In this document: piece after piece, positions 1 to 61,237 of the stretch | Position numbering within the stretch: position 1 is the stretch's first letter | Layout of the letters: every line of letters starts with the position of its first letter | IMG/VR virus record: IMGVR_UViG_3300025162_000006 | Coordinates: 1-64,000 of that record | DNA: 64,000 bases | Origin: a virus | Direction: 5' to 3' (one strand) | The notes under the pieces: model-generated | The model's database searches: none | Seen by the model: the letters and a program-made list of their open reading frames with translations, nothing else | What the model was told of the DNA's origin: nothing | Position numbers and translations under genes: made by a program

Positions 1-9
1 CAGTGGCAA

Positions 10-1575
10 ATGGAGCGATTTCAGGAATCGGAGACTAACTGGTACTGGTCCAAGTTTGCGGGATACGAAAACCATCAGTGGGATGGAACACCGGACCCCT
101 TTGCTACCGCTATCAATGCATTGGCAGAGCGCAAATGGGTCGGGATTGAATCAGGTACTTCAACCGGTAAAACATTTATTCTCCCAAGAATAATTTACTG
201 GTTCCTCGATGTTTTTCCTAACTCACTGGTGGTAACTACTGCGCCAAAAAAAGAACAGTTGAAAAGAATCTTGTGGATGGAGATGGCCTCAGCATTTGAC
301 AAGTTTACCCGAATCAGGACCTTTGCGGAAATGTTAACACTCTCACTGGTGGTAGATAGTCGAAGTAAAAAAGCGCAAAACAGTTTTACCCGAACCACTG
401 AATACGATGTAGGCCATGAGGCTATTGGATTTGTCTCACAGGTTGGTGCCGGTGAAGAATCAGCTACAAAGATGCAAGGATTCCACAGGGAGAATATGCT
501 TTTCGTATTGGAAGAATGTGCGGGTTTGCCTCCCGCTATTATCAAAGCAGTAGAGAACACCTCCACTGCTGAAAACAATCTCGTTATTGCGGTTGGCAAT
601 CCGGACTCGCAATTAGATGCGCTCCATCAGTTCTGCGGATTGAGCAAAACAGTTCATATCACTATCAGTGCTTACGATCATCCGAACATCGTTCTTAAAC
701 AATCTCTAATCCCTGGCGCAGTAACCGTTTCCAGTATTGACTTCCGAAAGGAAGAATACGGGGAGGATTCTCCTTTTTATAAATCTCGTGTGAGAGGTAT
801 TGCTCCCACTGAGGCGGTTGACAGCTTATTCAGGAACGCATACATGGAGCAATGCAATGTTAACAATCCGGAGGCTTTTATTGGCGGGGATATCAATAGA
901 GGTAAGGAATTCCAAAACGCTCTCGGCATTGATGTCGCAAACTCAATAGATGGAGACAAGGCGTGTTTGGCATGGGGGACCGGAAACGAACTCAATATCT
1001 TACACGAATTCCATTGTCCTGATGCCAATTACCTTGCGTATAACATCATGTACGAAGATGATACCCTGCGGGATATGGCACGAAATAAGTTCTTTGAACA
1101 TGATATTGTTTACCGGACCAGTAAATTAGCGAACCATCAAATTGCTCACTGGAATATTGGCGTTGATGCCGTTGGCGTAGGGGTTGGAACGATCAATACT
1201 TTCAGGGATAACCATATCAAAGTAATCGGTTTACAGGGTGGCCAGTTGAAGAAAGTTATTCCGGTTGACAAATCTACCTCAACACCCTTGTACGAATATA
1301 ACTCGCTGCGCTCTCAAATGTATTTTACCGCAATGTTGGACATGAAAAAGGGAGAGATCAGGATTAACCTCCCCCCGAATGTTTACAAGGCATTGAAACG
1401 GGAGTTATTGGTAGTCTCTTATTCGGTTACTGGCGGGAAGATAGGAATAGAGGGAAAAGACGAGATCAAGAAAAAACTCGGGGGTAAGTCTCCGAACATG
1501 GCCGATGCGTTCGTTTACTGGAACTGGATGCGGAAGAACTATTATAGACCGACTCGAGATTTACCTTTTGGGTAA
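10..1575 (+). CDS. terL: Terminase large subunit
   Basis: DNA-packaging motor: an ATPase that pumps DNA into the prohead plus a nuclease that cuts the concatemer. A Walker A-type loop (GTSTGKT) lies at residues 49-55 and a Walker B-like hydrophobic run ending in two acidic residues (LFVLEE) at 164-169. The C-terminal half has RNase H-like nuclease features: GID at D308, GVD at D386 and an NMADAFVYW motif near 498-506. At 521 aa the length is normal. The frame stays open from base 1 to the ATG at 10, so a start outside the window cannot be excluded. Portal and head genes follow after an unusual 6.6 kb of small accessory genes. Confidence 0.93.
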   Translation: MERFQESETNWYWSKFAGYENHQWDGTPDPFATAINALAERKWVGIESGTSTGKTFILPRIIYWFLDVFPNSLVVTTAPKKEQLKRILWMEMASAFDKFTRIRTFAEMLTLSLVVDSRSKKAQNSFTRTTEYDVGHEAIGFVSQVGAGEESATKMQGFHRENMLFVLEECAGLPPAIIKAVENTSTAENNLVIAVGNPDSQLDALHQFCGLSKTVHITISAYDHPNIVLKQSLIPGAVTVSSIDFRKEEYGEDSPFYKSRVRGIAPTEAVDSLFRNAYMEQCNVNNPEAFIGGDINRGKEFQNALGIDVANSIDGDKACLAWGTGNELNILHEFHCPDANYLAYNIMYEDDTLRDMARNKFFEHDIVYRTSKLANHQIAHWNIGVDAVGVGVGTINTFRDNHIKVIGLQGGQLKKVIPVDKSTSTPLYEYNSLRSQMYFTAMLDMKKGEIRINLPPNVYKALKRELLVVSYSVTGGKIGIEGKDEIKKKLGGKSPNMADAFVYWNWMRKNYYRPTRDLPFG

Positions 1576-52945: not shown

Positions 52946-54571
52946 ATGAATGACATTGTAAAAATTAAGATTGCGGACATTGTGATCGTTTCAAATATCC
53001 GCACACAGGACAGTAAAGCGATTGCGGAACTTGCTGAATCCATTGAATCGGTTGGCCTTATTCAACCGATTACCACAACCTTTGATGAAGAAGCGGAGAA
53101 ATACCGATTAATCACTGGTCACCGCAGGGTAGCGGCATACATTAAACTCTCTCTCCCCGAGATTGAGGCAATACTCAAACCGGAGATGTCAGATGCCGAC
53201 ATTATCGCATACCAGTTAATTGAGAATATCCAACGGGAAACGGTCACCATTATTGAGGAAGCGCACTCATTTGACAAGCTTGTTAAAGAGAATCATTTGA
53301 CGGTTAAACAGATTGCGAAGTCAATAGGGAAAACCCTGAAATATGTCAACGCAAGGTTACTCCTGAATAACCTCACTGATGATGTCTCCGCACTGGTCCA
53401 CTCCGGAACCCTCACAACGCAACACGCCTTACTCTTTGCTCAATGCACCCCTGATGCTCAGGCGATGTTATTAGGGAGGATACGCCCTGATATTCTCAAA
53501 CCGGAACAGGTAGAGGGTCCGAGAGAACTCAAACGGTTAATATCGCAACTGGTGGTACATTCACTGGCCGGTGCACCTTTTGATTTCGAAGATGCCGAGT
53601 TAGTGCCTCACGCCGGTAGCTGCCTCAAATGTCCGAAACGATCAGGTGCGAACAAATCACTGTTTGACACAGTGGAGAGTGAGGATGATTGTTTTGACCC
53701 TGCTTGTTACGGGTTGAAGATTCGCGCCATGATGGATAAGATGGCCGCTCAATACCAGTTGAAGAACATTAAAGTTCATTTCCTTACGGAGAACTGGAAA
53801 CCGGATTCTGAATTAGAGAAAAAGAATCTCGAATGGGGGTATAAGCTGCACACCGTAGATATGCCAAAAGGTAAACCGGTAAAAGGATTTCCATTGAGAG
53901 AGGTAGGTATCTACATTGAGGCTCAGAATCCCGAAAAGAACGGAACGGTTGTACAGGTATTGAACGATGAAGAATGGAGAAAGTTTTACGATTTAACCGC
54001 TCCGAAAAACAATGACTCACGCCCTGATAATAACGAATCGGTATCTGATGAAGATCAGTTCACGAAAGAATTTCAGGCCAACCGCAAGAACATTGAAAAG
54101 TTCATCAAAGAGATAACCAACGCCGCTGCGCTGCAAGTAGCGAAGTCGGATACGATTAAGCTACCGGATACCTTGCTCCGTTATCTTGGGAAGAACCTAC
54201 TGGAATCGCTTGACGAAGAAGATCAAAAGGAATTCATTAAACACTTCGGGTGGTCCATGGAAGTCGCTCCGCAAAAAGAGGGTGGGGAGATCAGGGTTGT
54301 CAACTTTGAAACCTTTGAGGCTTACGACATGGATACCCTGTACCAGTCGAATATTTACAGGTACTCCGGTCGTGATCTTTATGAGGTCCTGATATTTCTC
54401 GTCTTACTGGAAATTGGTTCGCAAAGTTTTTACGGAAAGCGAATGAGTGACGAATCAATATACGGTATTGAATTAGCGAAAGAGATAGGGGTAAACACTG
54501 ATGAAGTCCTTGCCTCAGTAGAGAAAGAAACGGAAAGCGCACTCAAAAAATTCATCCTGTTAAGAAATTAA
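52946..54571 (+). CDS. ParB-like DNA-binding protein, large
   Basis: 541 aa. The N-terminal ParB/Spo0J domain includes IRTQDSKAIAELAESIESVGLIQPI, a GHRR motif (LITGHRRVAAYI) and ENIQRE, followed by a helix-turn-helix (LTVKQIAKSIGKTLKYV). A Cys cluster (CLKCPKRS ... CFDPACYG) near 228-257 suggests a zinc site. The last 170 residues are of unknown fold. Without a ParA partner, it is more likely a regulator or nucleoid-type factor than a partition protein. Confidence 0.85.
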   Translation: MNDIVKIKIADIVIVSNIRTQDSKAIAELAESIESVGLIQPITTTFDEEAEKYRLITGHRRVAAYIKLSLPEIEAILKPEMSDADIIAYQLIENIQRETVTIIEEAHSFDKLVKENHLTVKQIAKSIGKTLKYVNARLLLNNLTDDVSALVHSGTLTTQHALLFAQCTPDAQAMLLGRIRPDILKPEQVEGPRELKRLISQLVVHSLAGAPFDFEDAELVPHAGSCLKCPKRSGANKSLFDTVESEDDCFDPACYGLKIRAMMDKMAAQYQLKNIKVHFLTENWKPDSELEKKNLEWGYKLHTVDMPKGKPVKGFPLREVGIYIEAQNPEKNGTVVQVLNDEEWRKFYDLTAPKNNDSRPDNNESVSDEDQFTKEFQANRKNIEKFIKEITNAAALQVAKSDTIKLPDTLLRYLGKNLLESLDEEDQKEFIKHFGWSMEVAPQKEGGEIRVVNFETFEAYDMDTLYQSNIYRYSGRDLYEVLIFLVLLEIGSQSFYGKRMSDESIYGIELAKEIGVNTDEVLASVEKETESALKKFILLRN

Positions 54572-54645: not shown

Positions 54646-56049
54646 ATGAATGTATTATCGCAAAGTCAAGGGTGGTTCATCCTGTTAATGTACTTACTGG
54701 TTATGTGCGTACTGGCATGGTGGTACTCCCGAAATGACGGGAAGATGACAAAGTTATCATTTCTCGTTGCCAACAGAACTATTCAGGGATGGTATGCGGC
54801 CTTATCAATAGCTGCCACTTGGATATGGGCGCCCGCTTTATTCGTTGCTTCGGAAAAGGCATACACGCAAGGAATTGCAGGGGCGTTTTGGTTCATTGCT
54901 CCGAATGTTGGCGTGTTGGTTTTATTCGGTTTTTTCGCTAACTGGATGCGGAAGAAAAAGCCGGAGGGTTGGACATTCTCCGATTCAATCAGGGAGTCCT
55001 ACTCGAATCGTACTCACAATTTATTTTTAATTGAGAGTTTCGGATTGCAAACAATGTCATTTGCGGTCCAGTTATTGGCGGGTGCTGCCGTAATGAGTAA
55101 GATTACAGGGATAGGATTCTTCCCGCTTACCGTTGCCCTGGCAGTTATACCGATCATTTACACTTTCCTGAAAGGGTTAAAGACAAGCATCATGACGGAC
55201 TACTGGCAAATGCTCGTCATTGCGGTGGTCCTGATTGTTGGTTTACCGTTCCTATTCGCAAGGACAGAACCCGGCTCCATTATCAGGGGATTGTCCGGAG
55301 CGAGTGGTAAGTTCGGCTCTCTCTTTGACTCAAACGGATTAAATGTTTTCCTCACATTCGGTTTGAGTACAACCATTGGACTGTTATCAGGTCCATTCGG
55401 AGATCAAATGTTTTGGCAAAGGATTTTTGCGGTTAAAAGGAATCAGGTCAAATCGACCATGATGTGGGCCGCAGTGTTCTTCGCCATTGTTCCGATCTCA
55501 CTGGCTCTATTCGGGTTTGCGGTTGCCGGTTCCCATGTTGAAAACGCCAACACTCAATTAACGAACCTCACTGCGGTATTGAACTGGACCCCGACATGGT
55601 TCATCTGGCTTTTTATCGTACTGATTTTATCCGGATTGATCTCTACATTGGACAGTATTATCACGGCGGTATCTTCCATTGTCGGTCATGACATTCAGGT
55701 AAGAACACAATTCAAGTTTGATGTCGTGAATGCCTCCCGTATTGCCATGGTGGTAGTGACTATCGTAGGTATTTGCATAGCGAATATTCCCGGCCTCAAA
55801 ATTGTGTACCTGTTCATGCTTTACGGGACATTGAGGGCATCGGTATTGCTCCCGACCATGTGGCATATCCTCGATAAAAAAATGTCGGAGAAAGGCCTGT
55901 TTTACGGTATCCTGATAAGTATGGCGGTAGGGTTACCGATATTCGGGTATGGAAACCTCAATAAGATCACTTGGATGATCGTTGGCGGTTCCCTGATCTC
56001 GCTCCTTGCCAGTGGGATAATCTCACGCCTCGGGAAGAACAAAGTTTAA
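54646..56049 (+). CDS. Sodium:solute symporter (SSS family)
   Basis: 467 aa membrane transporter with about 12-13 hydrophobic segments. Family features include an N-terminal LSFLVANRTIQGWYAALS stretch (substrate/sodium side of TM1), a GPFGDQMFWQRIFAVK motif between TM7 and TM8, and LSGLISTLDSIITAVSS in the LeuT-like core. Substrates in the family range from sugars and sialic acid to proline, urea and vitamins; sequence alone does not say which. A phage-encoded SSS transporter is unusual. It forms a unit with the outer-membrane gene that follows. Confidence 0.9.
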   Translation: MNVLSQSQGWFILLMYLLVMCVLAWWYSRNDGKMTKLSFLVANRTIQGWYAALSIAATWIWAPALFVASEKAYTQGIAGAFWFIAPNVGVLVLFGFFANWMRKKKPEGWTFSDSIRESYSNRTHNLFLIESFGLQTMSFAVQLLAGAAVMSKITGIGFFPLTVALAVIPIIYTFLKGLKTSIMTDYWQMLVIAVVLIVGLPFLFARTEPGSIIRGLSGASGKFGSLFDSNGLNVFLTFGLSTTIGLLSGPFGDQMFWQRIFAVKRNQVKSTMMWAAVFFAIVPISLALFGFAVAGSHVENANTQLTNLTAVLNWTPTWFIWLFIVLILSGLISTLDSIITAVSSIVGHDIQVRTQFKFDVVNASRIAMVVVTIVGICIANIPGLKIVYLFMLYGTLRASVLLPTMWHILDKKMSEKGLFYGILISMAVGLPIFGYGNLNKITWMIVGGSLISLLASGIISRLGKNKV

Positions 56050-56081
56050 TTTCAAAGTATCAATTCAAAACAGATTTTAAG

Positions 56082-56780
56082 ATGAAAAAGATTTTAACAT
56101 TATTCGCAGTGCTATTATGCACGATCTCACTGAATGCACAAGTATATGACGGTATCACACAACCCACAAGGTGGCGGGTATGGTTCCCTGCACAAATGAG
56201 TGTTGCACCCGCTAAAACAACTACGCCAACGGTTGCTCCATTCGTGGGGTATAAGGTTGACTTGGCGAAATGGGTAAACCTGACAGCAATATATCAATAC
56301 AATATCAACAAACACGCCCATATCCCGCAAGTATGGATGAACTTCAACATTAACAAAAAGGTATATTTCCTGTTCCGCACCGGATACAATACTCAGGCGA
56401 ACCAGTTATTTGAAACCGTCTCCGGTACATGGAAAGCGCCATTGAACCTGATGTTGGATTTCACTTGGCAAAACCTGATTGTTAATAACTTCAATGAGGG
56501 AGCGACAAAGGGAACGCAAATGTTTGAGACATACGACAATTTTCAGGTACTCGGGGGATGGAAACTCACTGTTAAAGGGCGGGATATATTCGTCATTAAC
56601 ACTGGTTGGCGGTTCCGACAGGAGTATGTTAATAACAAGTACAATGCCGGTTTGATCTCGAACCTCCGGTTAATTGTGTATCAAAAGAACTGGCTGCAAT
56701 TCGGGTATGATTACACGAATAAAATGTTAACCGCAGCGGCCGTTATCCAGTTCGACAATTTTACAGACAAGAAGAAGTAA
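56082..56780 (+). CDS. Outer-membrane beta-barrel protein with signal peptide
   Basis: 232 aa from ATG 56082 (the longer in-frame start lies inside the transporter gene). Signal peptide MKKILTLFAVLLCTISLNA, cleaved near AQV. The mature part alternates strands (YKVDLAKWVNLTAIYQYNIN; KKVYFLFRTGYNT; WLQFGYDYTN) with aromatic girdle residues and ends near a short basic tail, as in 10-12 strand barrels. It could be a porin supplying the symporter, or a surface-exclusion protein. Confidence 0.78.
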   Translation: MKKILTLFAVLLCTISLNAQVYDGITQPTRWRVWFPAQMSVAPAKTTTPTVAPFVGYKVDLAKWVNLTAIYQYNINKHAHIPQVWMNFNINKKVYFLFRTGYNTQANQLFETVSGTWKAPLNLMLDFTWQNLIVNNFNEGATKGTQMFETYDNFQVLGGWKLTVKGRDIFVINTGWRFRQEYVNNKYNAGLISNLRLIVYQKNWLQFGYDYTNKMLTAAAVIQFDNFTDKKK

Positions 56781-56834: not shown

Positions 56835-57578
56835 ATGAAACAACTCACTTGGAAAAACGAAACAAGAAAACTTTCTGATCTCATACCTTGGGAAAAGAAT
56901 CCCATGATCATGACCGATTCCAAATTTGAAAAACTGGTCGGGCAGATCAATTCATTCGGGTTTACGAATCCGTTTGTTATTAACATTGATAACATGATCG
57001 TTTGCGGTCACTCCCGCAGAAAGGCATTGATTCAGTTGGGTCGGGTGGATGAAGAAGTTCCTGTAAGGGTCCCGAATCGTGCGCTCTCTTCGGAAGAATT
57101 TGAATTGATCGCATTGGGGGATAACCGGTATATTTCAGCATTTGACCCGAAACTTGTATCCGCAAATTTTAACCCTGATGTATTACTGAAACTCGGGTTT
57201 GAAAGATGGGAATTCGGCAACCTGAATAACGATCTACTTGCAACAATGCCAACCTTTGCGGATAGACCTGATTCAAAGTTACCGGAAGATGATCGCTCCA
57301 CGCTCACACCTATTGACCTCGAAGCATTGAAAAGTGAGGGCAGTCAGTTACCGGAGCACAATGAACAGGAACCATCCGCAGAGCAAACCCAAACCGAAAA
57401 GGAAATGGCCTTTGAATTGCTCCTGAAATTATCCGTTCGGAGATCTGCTTACCAGTTGATAACCGAACTCAGGGAAAAGTATAATGCCACTACGGTATCT
57501 CAGGCGTTCCTGATGATAATTGAAACGATGGAGAGAGCGAAAGACCATCCTGATTTCAAAGACATTTTCGGAAAATAA
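56835..57578 (+). CDS. ParB-like protein, methylase-associated type
   Basis: 247 aa. ParB N-domain at about 10-110 with LSDLIPWEKNPMIM, a GHSRRKALIQLG motif and ALGDNRY..FDPKLV, a pattern common in phage ParB proteins found near DNA-modification genes. Acidic disordered linker (about 135-185) and a helical C-terminus. The ParB fold is known to bind DNA and, in some members, NTP. First gene of the overlapping chain. Confidence 0.82.
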   Translation: MKQLTWKNETRKLSDLIPWEKNPMIMTDSKFEKLVGQINSFGFTNPFVINIDNMIVCGHSRRKALIQLGRVDEEVPVRVPNRALSSEEFELIALGDNRYISAFDPKLVSANFNPDVLLKLGFERWEFGNLNNDLLATMPTFADRPDSKLPEDDRSTLTPIDLEALKSEGSQLPEHNEQEPSAEQTQTEKEMAFELLLKLSVRRSAYQLITELREKYNATTVSQAFLMIIETMERAKDHPDFKDIFGK

Positions 57579-57584
57579 ACAACC

Positions 57585-58172
57585 ATGTGCGGGATATATG
57601 GATACATAGGTAGTTTCGCAAGTTTTGATGTTATTAAAAAACTGATTAAATTAGCTGAAACAAGAGGGAAAAAACAGCATGGATTCAGTTATATAAAAAA
57701 CGGAATGCTTTTCACTTACAAAAATACCGGTCGGGCAAGTAGAACGCTCTCACACGCTAAAAGGGTGGAGGGAGCGCAATGCATTATCGGTATCGCTCAA
57801 AATAATACAGGGCGGTTCTCCGGTGGTCCGCAGCCGTTCACTGATGGAGAGAGCGTTTCAGTTGTTATACTGGATGATTTCAGCAGCTATAAAAGTTTAT
57901 TCCGTAACCATGACCGTAAAACACCCGCACAGATCAATTCGGTAGCCTGTATTGAGAGATTAAACCGGAGTGATATATCACCATCAAAACTACATAGAAC
58001 GCTCCCTACGCATCTCGTATTGACAATTCAGGATAACACTTTTTATGTTATGAATAAAGAGTTACCCCTGTACATTGAAGAATTACCTGATGGATTAATT
58101 TTCAGTTCCAGGCGAATTTCAGAAAAAAGCAAACCATTATTCAATTCATTCATTCATCATGTCGTTAAGTAA
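57585..58172 (+). CDS. Stand-alone class II glutamine amidotransferase
   Basis: 195 aa N-terminal-nucleophile amidotransferase. Cys2 directly follows the initiator Met (MCGIYGYIG), the catalytic nucleophile of PurF/GlmS/AsnB-type enzymes; GRASRTLSHAKRV and IGIAQNNTGRFSGGPQPF occupy the positions of the glutamine-binding loop (normally ..HNGxI..). It would hydrolyse glutamine and hand ammonia to a partner. There is no synthase domain on the same chain; the PP-loop gene overlapping by 14 bases is the natural candidate. Confidence 0.83.
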   Translation: MCGIYGYIGSFASFDVIKKLIKLAETRGKKQHGFSYIKNGMLFTYKNTGRASRTLSHAKRVEGAQCIIGIAQNNTGRFSGGPQPFTDGESVSVVILDDFSSYKSLFRNHDRKTPAQINSVACIERLNRSDISPSKLHRTLPTHLVLTIQDNTFYVMNKELPLYIEELPDGLIFSSRRISEKSKPLFNSFIHHVVK

Positions 58173-59433
58173 AGAATTTCAGGAAACAAATGTATGGGAA
58201 GCCTCACAGGAACGGGTAAAACTGGTATTTGATCGTTTCGATCATGTCTCAGTCAGCTTTTCCGGTGGTAAAGATTCAACCGTTGTGCTACATTTAGCAC
58301 TGGAAGAAGCCGAGCGCAGGGGAAGATTACCACTTGATGTTTTCCATTTTGACGAAGAAGCCATACACCCTCCAACGATGGAGTATGTTGCCCGAGTAGC
58401 CAGTAACCCGAAGATAAGATTCCTTTGGTTCTGCCTACCGGTCCAGCACCGGAACGCATGCTCCCGCAAACAACCGTATTGGTATTGTTGGAACCCGAAA
58501 GAGAAGAATATTTGGGTGCGCCCATTACCGAAAGAGGGTATCACTTATCTCAAAGGATTCGAGGCCGGTATGGATGTCCCTACTGCCTGTACGCTATTAT
58601 ATCCGGAGGTACAGGGAAGTAAAATCCAGTTATTAGGTATCCGCACCGAAGAATCACTCCGTAGGTACAGAGCGGTCACCGCAAGGGTGGAGGATAACTG
58701 GTTATCATTGAGATCAGGTGCCGGTCGGTTTTACAGGGGTTATCCTATTTATGACTGGAGCTCATTAGATGTGTGGATGCCGATAGCAAAATTCGGGTGG
58801 GATTATAACCGCACTTACGATGTTCTCAATATGTACGGGTTCTCCCCGTTGCAGCAAAGGGTTTGTCCTCCCTACGGCGAAGAACCATTACGGGGTTTAC
58901 ACCTTTACAAAGCCTGTTTTCCCAAAATGTGGGATAAAATGATTAACAGGGTGCCGGGGGCCAACGCCGCAGCACTTTACGGAAATAGTGATGTTTACGG
59001 GGTGCGGTTAAAGGAACCCCCCGATGGAATGACATGGAGGGAATATCTCGAAGTGATCATGACCCTTTGGGATACAGAACAGGAAACCCGACTCAGGGAA
59101 CACATTAACGGTCAGATAAAACTCCATTATTACAAGTCAATTCTCCCCATTCACGAATCAAAGAATGACCCAGTGAGCGGTATGAGTTGGCTTTTCCTTT
59201 GTCGAATTGCATTATCAGGTGACCTGAAATTGAGAATAGCGGGGGTTGCCATAAGGGAAACAGGGAAAGCCTGTACGAAAATGGGGATAACAAACGAACA
59301 AGCGATTGAATTATACGGAACTGAAAAATTTAAAAACGATTTCAAAAATGGAACAATCAGGAAACCAAAAGACGATGAAATTGAGGAAGTCATCGGAAAT
59401 GACATCGACCTCGAAAGTGATGCCGGTGAGTAA
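58159..59433 (+). CDS. PAPS-reductase-like PP-loop enzyme (DUF3440, IbrA type)
   Basis: 424 aa. PP-loop SFSGGKDST lies at residues 33-41, the ATP-pyrophosphatase signature that adenylates a substrate. The C-terminal region is that of DUF3440/IbrA proteins (RTEESLRRY, WDYNRTYDVLNMYG, MTWREYLEVIMTLWD). Cys/Trp-rich YWYCWNPKE near 110 may bind substrate or metal. The pair with the ParB protein that overlaps downstream matches the IbrA-IbrB arrangement of mobile elements. Chemistry unknown; AMP-activated amide or thio transfer is possible. Confidence 0.88.
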   Translation: MSLSKEFQETNVWEASQERVKLVFDRFDHVSVSFSGGKDSTVVLHLALEEAERRGRLPLDVFHFDEEAIHPPTMEYVARVASNPKIRFLWFCLPVQHRNACSRKQPYWYCWNPKEKNIWVRPLPKEGITYLKGFEAGMDVPTACTLLYPEVQGSKIQLLGIRTEESLRRYRAVTARVEDNWLSLRSGAGRFYRGYPIYDWSSLDVWMPIAKFGWDYNRTYDVLNMYGFSPLQQRVCPPYGEEPLRGLHLYKACFPKMWDKMINRVPGANAAALYGNSDVYGVRLKEPPDGMTWREYLEVIMTLWDTEQETRLREHINGQIKLHYYKSILPIHESKNDPVSGMSWLFLCRIALSGDLKLRIAGVAIRETGKACTKMGITNEQAIELYGTEKFKNDFKNGTIRKPKDDEIEEVIGNDIDLESDAGE

Positions 59434-59911
59434 TGTACAGTGGGTACATAGATCAGAATTAACGGCAAATGATTACAACCCGAATTATGTTGCGGGTCCC
59501 GAAATGAAACTCCTGAAAACCTCCATCATGGAGGATGGATGGACAGTGCCACTGGTAATTGATGAAAAGGGTACCATCATTGACGGATTCCACAGATTCA
59601 CGCTCTCCGCAGATGCGGAAATTTACGCTCTCACGGATGGATGGTTACCGGTTGTTATTTTGACGAGAGATCAAAATGCAAGGCGGTTATCCACGATCAG
59701 GCACAACAGGGCAAGAGGTACTCATGCAGTGATTGAAATGTCGACAATCGTGCGCTTTTTACTGGAACACAATATGACGGTTCCTGAAATACAGGCACGC
59801 TTGGGGATGGATGAAGAAGAAGTTTACCGGTTATCCGCAAAGGGTGGTATGCCGGCACAAGCGATCAGGCAGCAAAAAGATTTCAGCAAATCATGGAACC
59901 CGAAAGGATAA
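59420..59911 (+). CDS. ParB-like protein, IbrB type
   Basis: About 163 aa from ATG 59420; in-frame starts at 59306-59399 lie inside the previous gene. ParB domain: ANDYNPNYVAGPEMKLLKTSI, DGWTVPLVID, IIDGFHRFTLS and RHNRARGTH. A helical C-terminus with LGMDEEEVYRLS could be a helix-turn-helix. Always seen beside DUF3440 proteins in this arrangement, so the two probably act together. Confidence 0.82.
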   Translation: MPVSNVQWVHRSELTANDYNPNYVAGPEMKLLKTSIMEDGWTVPLVIDEKGTIIDGFHRFTLSADAEIYALTDGWLPVVILTRDQNARRLSTIRHNRARGTHAVIEMSTIVRFLLEHNMTVPEIQARLGMDEEEVYRLSAKGGMPAQAIRQQKDFSKSWNPKG

Positions 59912-60255
59912 AAGTAATTGCCATTACCGGCAGCCGATCAGGTATTGACAGGGGAACAGTGCACCAGTATTTGAGTGCGCTGCTCTCCCTTGGCAATTAT
60001 GAGATCGTGACCGGTGGTGCAAAAGGGGTTGACAGATTCGCTATTGAATTTGCGGAATTACATGGAATAAAGCATACCGAAATTCTACCTGATTATAACC
60101 GTTATAGCACAGTGGCGCCAATTATCAGGAACAAAGAGATCGTAAAAAATGCGGATATGGTATATGCTTTTTGGGATGGATTAAGTAAGGGAACTTTACA
60201 CACTATCACCTATGCAAGCAAAATCGGAAAAAGAATACTCGTTATTAAAAACTGA
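59893..60255 (+). CDS. SLOG-fold nucleotide-binding protein, YspA/DUF2493-like
   Basis: 120 aa Rossmann-like protein: TGSR (residues 12-15), VTGGAKGVDRFA (39-50), LPDYNRY and FWDGLSKGT, all hallmarks of the YspA branch of the SLOG family. Related proteins bind nucleotides, ADP-ribose derivatives or cleave base-sugar bonds (LOG type, though the LOG motif PGGxGTxxE is absent). Overlaps both neighbours, so it belongs to the same pathway. Confidence 0.85.
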   Translation: MEPERIKVIAITGSRSGIDRGTVHQYLSALLSLGNYEIVTGGAKGVDRFAIEFAELHGIKHTEILPDYNRYSTVAPIIRNKEIVKNADMVYAFWDGLSKGTLHTITYASKIGKRILVIKN

Positions 60256-61237
60256 CAATGGCATTTATGGATTATACACCTACCATAGCACTTGGACCTC
60301 TGCCTCCGGTCCGCTCAATGACCCCGAAAGTCAGAGGCAAAACAATATAGTTGCGGGATTCAAGAATAGAGGCCACAATACCGAACTGTTTTCCCGAAGG
60401 ATAAAACAGGTTGCTCTCCTGTTAAACTGTACACGAATCGTTGCCGTACCTCCGCACGATCTGAAACAGAGCAATATTCAAAAGTTGTTTCCTGGCAATG
60501 GGATTATTCGCACCACGCCCGGGCCCAAACGGAAATACAAAAAAAATGAGTTATCCCTCTCTCATTTTTCAATCAGTGATACAAAAGAGCGCACCCTACT
60601 GGTGGATGATCTCTCTACCACTGGATACACCTTAAAATTCTTCGCTAATTCATTTCAGGATTGTGAGTTATTCGCTATTGGTATCAATGCGAAACTTAAT
60701 CCACGCACAGTCCGGATGCTCCAAGATCAGGATATCAAGCCTCAGCCTGAGATCAAACCGGAGGATACTGGTAAGATACAGGTTGACAATGTAAGCGACA
60801 GGGTGGCGTTCATTGCTGCTTTACAGAATGGAATGGGGTTAACTCATGGGTGCAGATTAATCCAGTGGCACCCGAAAGAAATGTCCGCTCTACTGATTCG
60901 GGAACCGGAATTCCGCAAAGAGTGTGAACACGCTCTAAAATTCGCCTCGAAAGCCTTACTGGTCATGAGTAACAGTTTTCTCGAAAATAAGAAATTCGAC
61001 AAATGGCTCCATCAGAACGAATACATTAAGGCGTTCCATACCGATCTCAATGTTTGGGAGTGTTACCGGCGTAGGGAATTGGTAACGGATATTGATCTCA
61101 TTAACGGATTCAGGATATTCGGTAGCATTGGAGAACTGGCTACCTCTACCGGTTTTACCGGACCTGAATTGATTGAACATATTGCTACAAACAAACGGTT
61201 GTCAATTTATTTCACTGAAATAGGAGTGTTAAAATGA
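60212..61237 (+). CDS. Phosphoribosyltransferase-domain protein
   Basis: 341 aa. PRPP-binding motif LLVDDLSTTGYT at residues 129-140, preceded by FSRRIKQVALLL and IVAVPPHD strands, matches type I phosphoribosyltransferases. The C-terminal half (about 190-341) is a separate domain of unknown family that includes a helix-turn-helix-like GSIGELATSTGFTGPELIEHI. It would add or remove ribose-5-phosphate on a base, or act as a sensor. It begins 44 bases inside the SLOG gene, the only ATG start available. Confidence 0.82.
   Translation: MQAKSEKEYSLLKTDNGIYGLYTYHSTWTSASGPLNDPESQRQNNIVAGFKNRGHNTELFSRRIKQVALLLNCTRIVAVPPHDLKQSNIQKLFPGNGIIRTTPGPKRKYKKNELSLSHFSISDTKERTLLVDDLSTTGYTLKFFANSFQDCELFAIGINAKLNPRTVRMLQDQDIKPQPEIKPEDTGKIQVDNVSDRVAFIAALQNGMGLTHGCRLIQWHPKEMSALLIREPEFRKECEHALKFASKALLVMSNSFLENKKFDKWLHQNEYIKAFHTDLNVWECYRRRELVTDIDLINGFRIFGSIGELATSTGFTGPELIEHIATNKRLSIYFTEIGVLK

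Follow-up and report, generated by a model that had tools for sequence, protein, structure and literature searches.

A recurrent phage cassette of ParB-fold and PP-loop genes with a possible role in DNA modification

Do six tightly packed genes in a phage genome encode a single biochemical pathway? The genes lie on the plus strand at 56835-61237 of a 64,000-base stretch (the window), which comprises bases 1-64000 of the 69,208-base IMG/VR virus record IMGVR_UViG_3300025162_000006. An earlier note on this DNA read them as one chain encoding two ParB-fold proteins, a stand-alone class II glutamine amidotransferase (GATase), a PP-loop enzyme of the DUF3440 family, a YspA-like SLOG protein and a protein with a phosphoribosyl pyrophosphate (PRPP) motif, and proposed that together they build and install, or sense, an unusual base or nucleotide. 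All six open reading frames (ORFs) are present, overlapping or with a 6-base gap, but the chain is composite. The genes for ParB1, the GATase, IbrA (the DUF3440 enzyme) and IbrB (ParB2) are, by their profile matches and gene order, members of a recurrent phage cassette that is real and uncharacterised; the window copy is partly degenerated and carries an apparently unrelated two-gene tail.

A recurrent cassette of ParB-fold and PP-loop genes

The first gene of the chain, ParB1 (56835-57578), encodes a ParB/sulfiredoxin-fold protein with a GHSRR box that matches PHROG 620 and PHROG 498 (E = 7e-19 and 2e-17). It is followed by the stand-alone class II GATase homologue (57585-58172), by IbrA (58159-59433; PF11922, 2e-16; PHROG 2302, 7e-86) and by IbrB, a second ParB/sulfiredoxin-fold protein carrying DGFHR ... 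RHNRARGTH (59399-59911; PHROG 2159, 8.5e-61), whose ATG start at 59399 was inferred from homologues, with GTG 59426 as an alternative. These matches uphold the earlier identification of two different ParB-fold proteins and a DUF3440 enzyme. Both marks of an IbrA/IbrB pair are found, namely a DUF3440 PP-loop protein with an intact SGGKDS motif and a neighbouring ParB/sulfiredoxin protein of the PHROG 2159 type. Residues SxGKDS, D65, E67, R162, E165, S166, R169 and Y198-D199-W200 of IbrA are kept in essentially all 107 homologues, and the window IbrA and IbrB look intact.

The architecture of the cassette was derived from a profile census over loci retrieved in two ways: a search with the SSF-family symporter encoded upstream of ParB1 returned 28 viral loci, and an alignment-based DUF3440 search added 80 (the best 80 of 584 confirmed). 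The cassette recurs across more than 100 IMG/VR loci in the order ParB1, a cupin or transporter gene, an optional second PP-loop gene (PP-loop 2), an optional GATase, IbrA, IbrB and usually then terminase, with IbrB adjoining IbrA in nearly all loci; relatives of the PAPS-reductase/ParB (IbrAB) pair as such number at least 584, confirmed by the DUF3440 scan. In 21 of the 28 SSF-retrieved loci the symporter is followed by a pair of ParB proteins and a PP-loop protein resembling PAPS reductase; in these loci an outer-membrane protein usually and a second PP-loop protein often precede the ParB/PP-loop genes and the small and large terminase subunits come after them. Among the 61 DUF3440 loci whose upstream sequence spans 1.5 kb or more, ParB1 was found in 54, ParB2 in 58, a cupin in 41, PP-loop 2 in 13, SSF in 3 and a TctC-type binding protein in 3. 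Among cultured phages, Streptococcus thermophilus phages CHPC1230 and CHPC1148 encode IbrA, and the prophage loci L089 and L138, which bear the GATase, come from records of isolate genomes. We found no open literature that names cupin, ParB, PAPS reductase and terminase together.

Of the 88 loci with enough sequence, 59 have a same-strand gene of a terminase-large family that begins no more than 2.5 kb downstream of the cassette. This position could also fit a transcription switch, in which an adenylated metabolite is sensed or produced by IbrA, DNA binding by the ParB-fold proteins controls the downstream packaging or late genes, and the signal metabolite comes from the cupin, SSF or TctC proteins. 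A helix-turn-helix-like stretch at the ParB2 C-terminus (weak HTH_17 and mad1 matches) is in keeping with such a switch, as are the co-regulation of E. coli YbdNM with citrate genes and the prediction that YbdM is a transcription factor (PMC9068703). Two PP-loop enzymes and a glutaminase would nevertheless be heavy equipment for a regulator, and ParB1-type domains are found fused to DNA methyltransferases; we regard a switch as rather unlikely.

Some loci depart from the common arrangement. Two tandem IbrA-type genes, possibly a paralogue expansion, occur in L105 and L157, and a protein of about 165 amino acids (cluster u10; no Pfam match where tested) is encoded between IbrA and IbrB in L044, L045, L047, L051, L055 and L109. 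In L036 the N-terminus of an outer-membrane protein is fused, at 1565-2638, to sequence that matches the IbrA profile (120 bits), an ORF that is an apparent deletion scar of the cassette. The IbrAB region of Fusobacterium phage phiFN37 (L007, 10763-12927) also holds another ParB gene beside genes for a queuine tRNA-ribosyltransferase and a queuosine-precursor transporter, which are likely a 7-deazaguanine DNA-modification set.

A variable slot for small-molecule genes

The cassette-linked unit in the window reaches upstream of ParB1, to two genes at 54646-56780 that are linked to the cassette in relatives. One encodes the SSF-family sodium:solute symporter (54646-56049, plus strand; PF00474, 2.8e-23; PHROG 20720, 7e-105), whose closest solved structures in the PDB are the DUR3 urea/H+ symporters (8e-20). 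The other encodes an outer-membrane-type protein with a predicted signal peptide (56082-56780, plus strand; no Pfam match), and almost every SSF-retrieved relative has such a protein paired with its SSF. In a tree built from 107 IbrA proteins, the window IbrA groups with the lineage of L043 and of cupin-type cassettes and stands well apart from its counterparts in other SSF/outer-membrane phages, which indicates that, by this tree, the slot behind the SSF and outer-membrane genes received two distant cassette versions. Some loci carry the SSF and outer-membrane genes and no cassette; there, terminase genes stand directly downstream wherever the locus extends far enough.

In other phages the small-molecule genes lie within the cassette itself. 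SSF occurs between ParB1 and IbrA in L085, L094 and L107, and the same position is held in L059-L061 by a TctC-type periplasmic binding protein (PF03401, 3e-32) whose PDB matches are Bug proteins and terephthalate-binding proteins. Cupin and SSF were found together in 0/82 loci (41 with cupin, 24 with SSF; Fisher 9e-10, uncorrected for kinship and with 21 of the SSF loci retrieved through SSF). TctC is nested within a cupin clade on the IbrA tree, taking the place of the cupin, and in the contrasts on supported branches the transporter ran opposite to the cupin in 3-4 and never in the same direction. The pattern of exchange between cupin and transporter is clear, though its independent replicates are modest in number. 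Because one slot holds cupin, SSF or TctC, and cupin never occurs with SSF, a small-molecule precursor is suggested, and the window SSF fills the role of the small-molecule slot of the cassette.

Import components of this kind could instead belong to a moron that serves defence or superinfection exclusion, or to an auxiliary metabolic set that couples nutrient import to an ATP-dependent conversion and has no nucleic-acid target. PHROG does annotate the PP-loop proteins as moron or auxiliary metabolic gene (AMG). The core proteins, however, match no PADLOC defence system beyond weak DndC/BrxP similarity, and the most constant partners of IbrA are ParB proteins, so that a moron or metabolic set strikes us as unlikely. 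A sulfur-assimilation AMG was considered and dropped, because the PAPS-reductase label is a family-level one and the CysD/CysH matches fall far under the cut-off.

The amidotransferase and its PP-loop partner

The class II identity of the window GATase, which has no Pfam match, comes from its MCGIYGYIG...RG motif, and its similarity to the GlmS N-terminus is slight (E = 0.001). The Cys2 nucleophile named in the earlier note is kept at the N-terminus, along with the RG motif, but the other glutaminase signatures are lost. When the protein is compared with eight stand-alone homologues encoded beside other DUF3440 genes, HxR has become AQN, HNG has become LDD and D(S/T)E has become NSV, changes that remove the glutamine-binding Arg, the oxyanion Asn-Gly and the substrate Asp, all of which the homologues keep. 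The window GATase is thus probably catalytically degenerate. An AlphaFold2 single-sequence model of it was unusable (predicted local distance difference test, pLDDT, 34.2).

In other phages, stand-alone class II GATases with canonical motifs directly adjoin IbrA in L043, L088, L089, L090, L092, L098 and L104, and L117 has the order IbrA, IbrB, cupin, PP-loop 2, GATase, so that a GATase with canonical motifs ends the cassette. In total a GATase lies beside PP-loop 2 and/or DUF3440 in 15 loci besides the window. The specificity of this link was tested independently of neighbouring genes by scanning IMG/VR with a degenerate DNA pattern for GHARLATxG, a pattern chosen because the cassette GATases diverge too far for their alignment to serve in a scan. 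The 31 stretches recovered include 9 that encode a GATase of the cassette family with the motif, 2 of them on contigs already seen and seven new (L133, L138, L139, L143, L151, L155 and L157). PP-loop 2 adjoins the GATase in 9/9 of these loci, and IbrA is present wherever the locus extends far enough, indicating that the GATase/PP-loop link is real. A pattern search with the window GATase itself matched only GATases unconnected with the cassette, and a GTDB scan with the L043 GATase returned only GATase proteins of about 600-660 amino acids (Anaerolineae, Vibrio), with the cassette absent.

The presence of the GATase, mapped on the IbrA tree, changes 7 times, with at least 6 changes forced by supported branches; it has therefore been gained or lost repeatedly. 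The canonical L043 GATase has asparagine synthase as its nearest family (3e-10), an enzyme that itself combines a GATase II domain with a PP-loop domain. PP-loop 2 was not found in the window phage, either in a hidden Markov model scan of the window or as an SGGKDS ORF in the remaining 5.2 kb. We infer that decay of the glutaminase in this phage followed loss of its partner PP-loop 2.

A two-gene tail behind the cassette

The last two genes of the chain encode the YspA-type SLOG protein (59893-60255, plus strand; PF10686, 7e-11), which agrees with the earlier assignment, and an orphan with the ComF-type PRPP motif VDDLSTTG (60212-61237, plus strand). The call of the orphan as a phosphoribosyltransferase (PRTase) is at motif level (ComF, E = 0.083; ShosT, E = 0.0024; no PF00156 match), and a PRTase fold is probable. 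Searches of INPHARED and PLSDB, and a peptide-pattern scan of IMG/VR and GTDB, gave no homologue of the orphan, and its AlphaFold2 single-sequence model was uninformative (pLDDT 37.6). A SLOG scan of IMG/VR likewise gave no relatives of the window SLOG protein. YspA-type SLOG is a common stand-alone phage gene, present in 294 phage records; in Ruminococcus phage NatCom_28274, for example, it lies near terminase with no PRTase.

These observations bear on whether the six genes form one pathway, SLOG and PRTase included, that makes an unusual nucleotide. The genes do overlap on one strand, and SLOG (LOG-type) proteins and PRTases are generally known to act on nucleotides. The overlaps are ordinary here, however, since 36/78 adjacent same-strand pairs in the window overlap or sit within 7 bases, and we dropped overlap as a sign of shared function for that reason. 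The gene-neighbourhood check proposed in the earlier note links DUF3440, the two ParB genes and the class II GATase, whereas neither SLOG nor PRTase occurs in any of the more than 100 other cassette loci examined. Given also that SLOG is so often a stand-alone gene, that PP-loop 2 is absent and that the window GATase is degenerate, a six-gene pathway is very improbable. A split PurF composed of the GATase and the PRTase was dropped because a PRTase accompanies the cassette nowhere else and the window GATase is degenerate.

Behind the cassette, SLOG and the PRTase-like gene have the look of an independent addition or insertion. They may be a toxin-antitoxin or anti-phage module of the RqlHI, PsyrTA or ShosTA type, a minority possibility that we take seriously and that is compatible with the reading of the cassette favoured below. 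Pairs of a DprA-like protein and a PRTase are known both as toxin-antitoxin and as anti-phage systems (PMC9122126; PMC4670107), and those systems share with the window a SLOG (DprA-like) gene adjoining a ComF-type PRTase-like gene. The SLOG protein matches ShosA (3e-7) and PsyrA (2e-5), and its partner matches ShosT (0.0024), but the ShosT model matches 14/14 control genomes, so the match is a generic ComF-type signal and the toxin-antitoxin idea therefore remains a lead. The window pair further differs in its much shorter SLOG protein (120 amino acids), the lack of a helicase domain, a reversed, antitoxin-first gene order and marginal similarity, and no homologue of the pair was found.

The surrounding genome

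An exact 127-base direct terminal repeat (window 1-127 is identical to record 69082-69208) indicates that the record probably covers the whole genome, assembled as a circle. Proteins of the window include a tail sheath, a portal, a terminase large subunit and a major head protein, which by gene content mark the source virus as a contractile-tailed phage, and a Bacteroidota host is suggested by the style of signal peptide that the outer-membrane protein carries. Directly upstream of the symporter, at 52946-54571, lies a gene for a 541-amino-acid ParB with an HTH_ParB domain; a similar large ParB is encoded upstream of the cassette in L043 (402-2288).

A possible function in DNA modification

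Our favoured reading is that the cassette, made up of the four genes from ParB1 to IbrB together with those for the symporter and the outer-membrane protein, gives phage DNA, ahead of its packaging, a modification derived from a small molecule, a tentative proposal to which we give somewhat less than an even chance. DNA is favoured as the target for several reasons. The domain that ParB1 represents in stand-alone form is joined, in other phages, to DNA methyltransferases (PHROG 498, PADLOC MTase_II); ParB1 matches the N-terminal part of PADLOC MTase_II (1.8e-9), and L121 encodes a methyltransferase carrying a fused ParB-type tail. ParB-superfamily proteins go with known DNA-modification machineries, such as DpdB, a ParB-like ATPase working with DpdA (PMC12839542), and DndB (PMC10853773). 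Finally, IbrA is weakly similar to DndC (1e-6, PADLOC), and the cassette adjoins packaging genes.

On this proposal, a small molecule would be imported, by SSF or in other phages with a TctC-type binding protein, or in most phages processed by a cupin, as the replacements in the slot suggest. A PP-loop enzyme with the SxGKDS and acidic residues that are invariant in IbrA would then adenylate the small molecule or the nucleic-acid target. In some phages the GATase and PP-loop 2, whose pairing is observed, may act as a split amidotransferase like asparagine synthetase or Gat-QueC, a step that the window phage, with no PP-loop 2 gene and a degenerate GATase, has probably lost. Recruitment of the enzyme to DNA, perhaps along with an NTPase activity, would fall to the ParB-fold proteins, the role proposed for DpdB and DndB, while the SLOG and PRTase-like genes would have been inserted separately, perhaps as a toxin-antitoxin or defence pair of the DprA/ComF kind. 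That the whole constitutes a new class of DNA modification, in which an imported or cupin-handled molecule is ATP-activated by PAPS-reductase-like PP-loop enzymes and attached to DNA before packaging with the aid of ParB/sulfiredoxin proteins, with amidation by a split AsnB-like GATase/PP-loop pair in some phages, is doubtful in that full form.

The target could instead be RNA, for example tRNA, whose modification would protect phage translation against defences aimed at tRNA. The TilS, TtcA and QueC types of PP-loop enzyme, to whose family IbrA belongs, usually act on tRNA, and archaeal Gat-QueC does so as well (PMC6884629). The nearly constant presence of two ParB-fold, DNA-type partners, the location beside terminase and the absence of tRNA genes from the window argue the other way, and we judge an RNA target quite improbable.

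Several observations weigh against modification of phage DNA by the cassette. The SSF and outer-membrane genes are kept without the ParB/PP-loop genes in L022, L023, L024, L028 and L030. Most cassettes lack the GATase and PP-loop 2, hence neither is essential, and the cupin/transporter contrasts on supported branches number only about 4 (sign test p 0.125-0.25). E. coli IbrA and IbrB are named as regulators of Eib expression, so a regulatory role is possible. The tie of YbdNM to a citrate-related regulon (PMC9068703) points in the same direction. The core idea of the earlier note is partly supported: gene families, gene order, repeated association and intact PP-loop residues are observed, and from these we infer the chemistry and DNA as the target. 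The anti-defence role that the note gave as an alternative is also conceivable. Phages commonly carry IbrAB pairs, which are unexplained, and the recurrent cassette makes their function directly testable and predicts a need for a small metabolite. If the DNA is modified, this would be new chemistry for phage counter-restriction.

Comparison with known systems

By sequence and adjacency, the window DUF3440 and ParB2 proteins are members of the group formed by E. coli IbrA/IbrB, YbdN/YbdM and phage PHROG 2302 with PHROG 2159; the window pair differs from IbrA/IbrB and YbdN/YbdM by the company of ParB1, a transporter and a GATase. We know of no tested biochemical activity of IbrAB.

With phosphorothioation by Dnd, Ssp or BREX type 4, the cassette shares a PP-loop enzyme (DndC) with a ParB-type partner (DndB), as well as the weak DndC similarity. 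A Dnd system was rejected: the DndC equivalog score is 22 bits against a cut-off of 290 bits, neither the cassette genes nor the recurrent clusters of neighbours include a cysteine desulfurase (DndA), DndD or DndE, and IbrA has a single near-invariant cysteine (C92, 97% of the 107 homologues).

The Dpd and phage 7-deazaguanine systems (DpdA, DpdB, Gat-QueC) likewise combine a ParB-like ATPase with a DNA modifier, and a GATase with a PP-loop amidotransferase; Gat-QueC of phage 9g is a precedent for GATase and PP-loop chemistry on a DNA base (PMC6884629). PP-loop 2, however, is CysH-like and not QueC. No TGT/DpdA, QueC, QueD, QueE or FolE was found among about 40 scanned proteins of the window genome, the small ORFs being only partly scanned, and as far as scanned this is not a 7-deazaguanine system. 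Asparagine synthetase B, finally, offers the parallel of an AsnB-type GATase II beside a PP-loop enzyme, which in the cassette are encoded by separate genes, with a PP-loop of the PAPS-reductase type.

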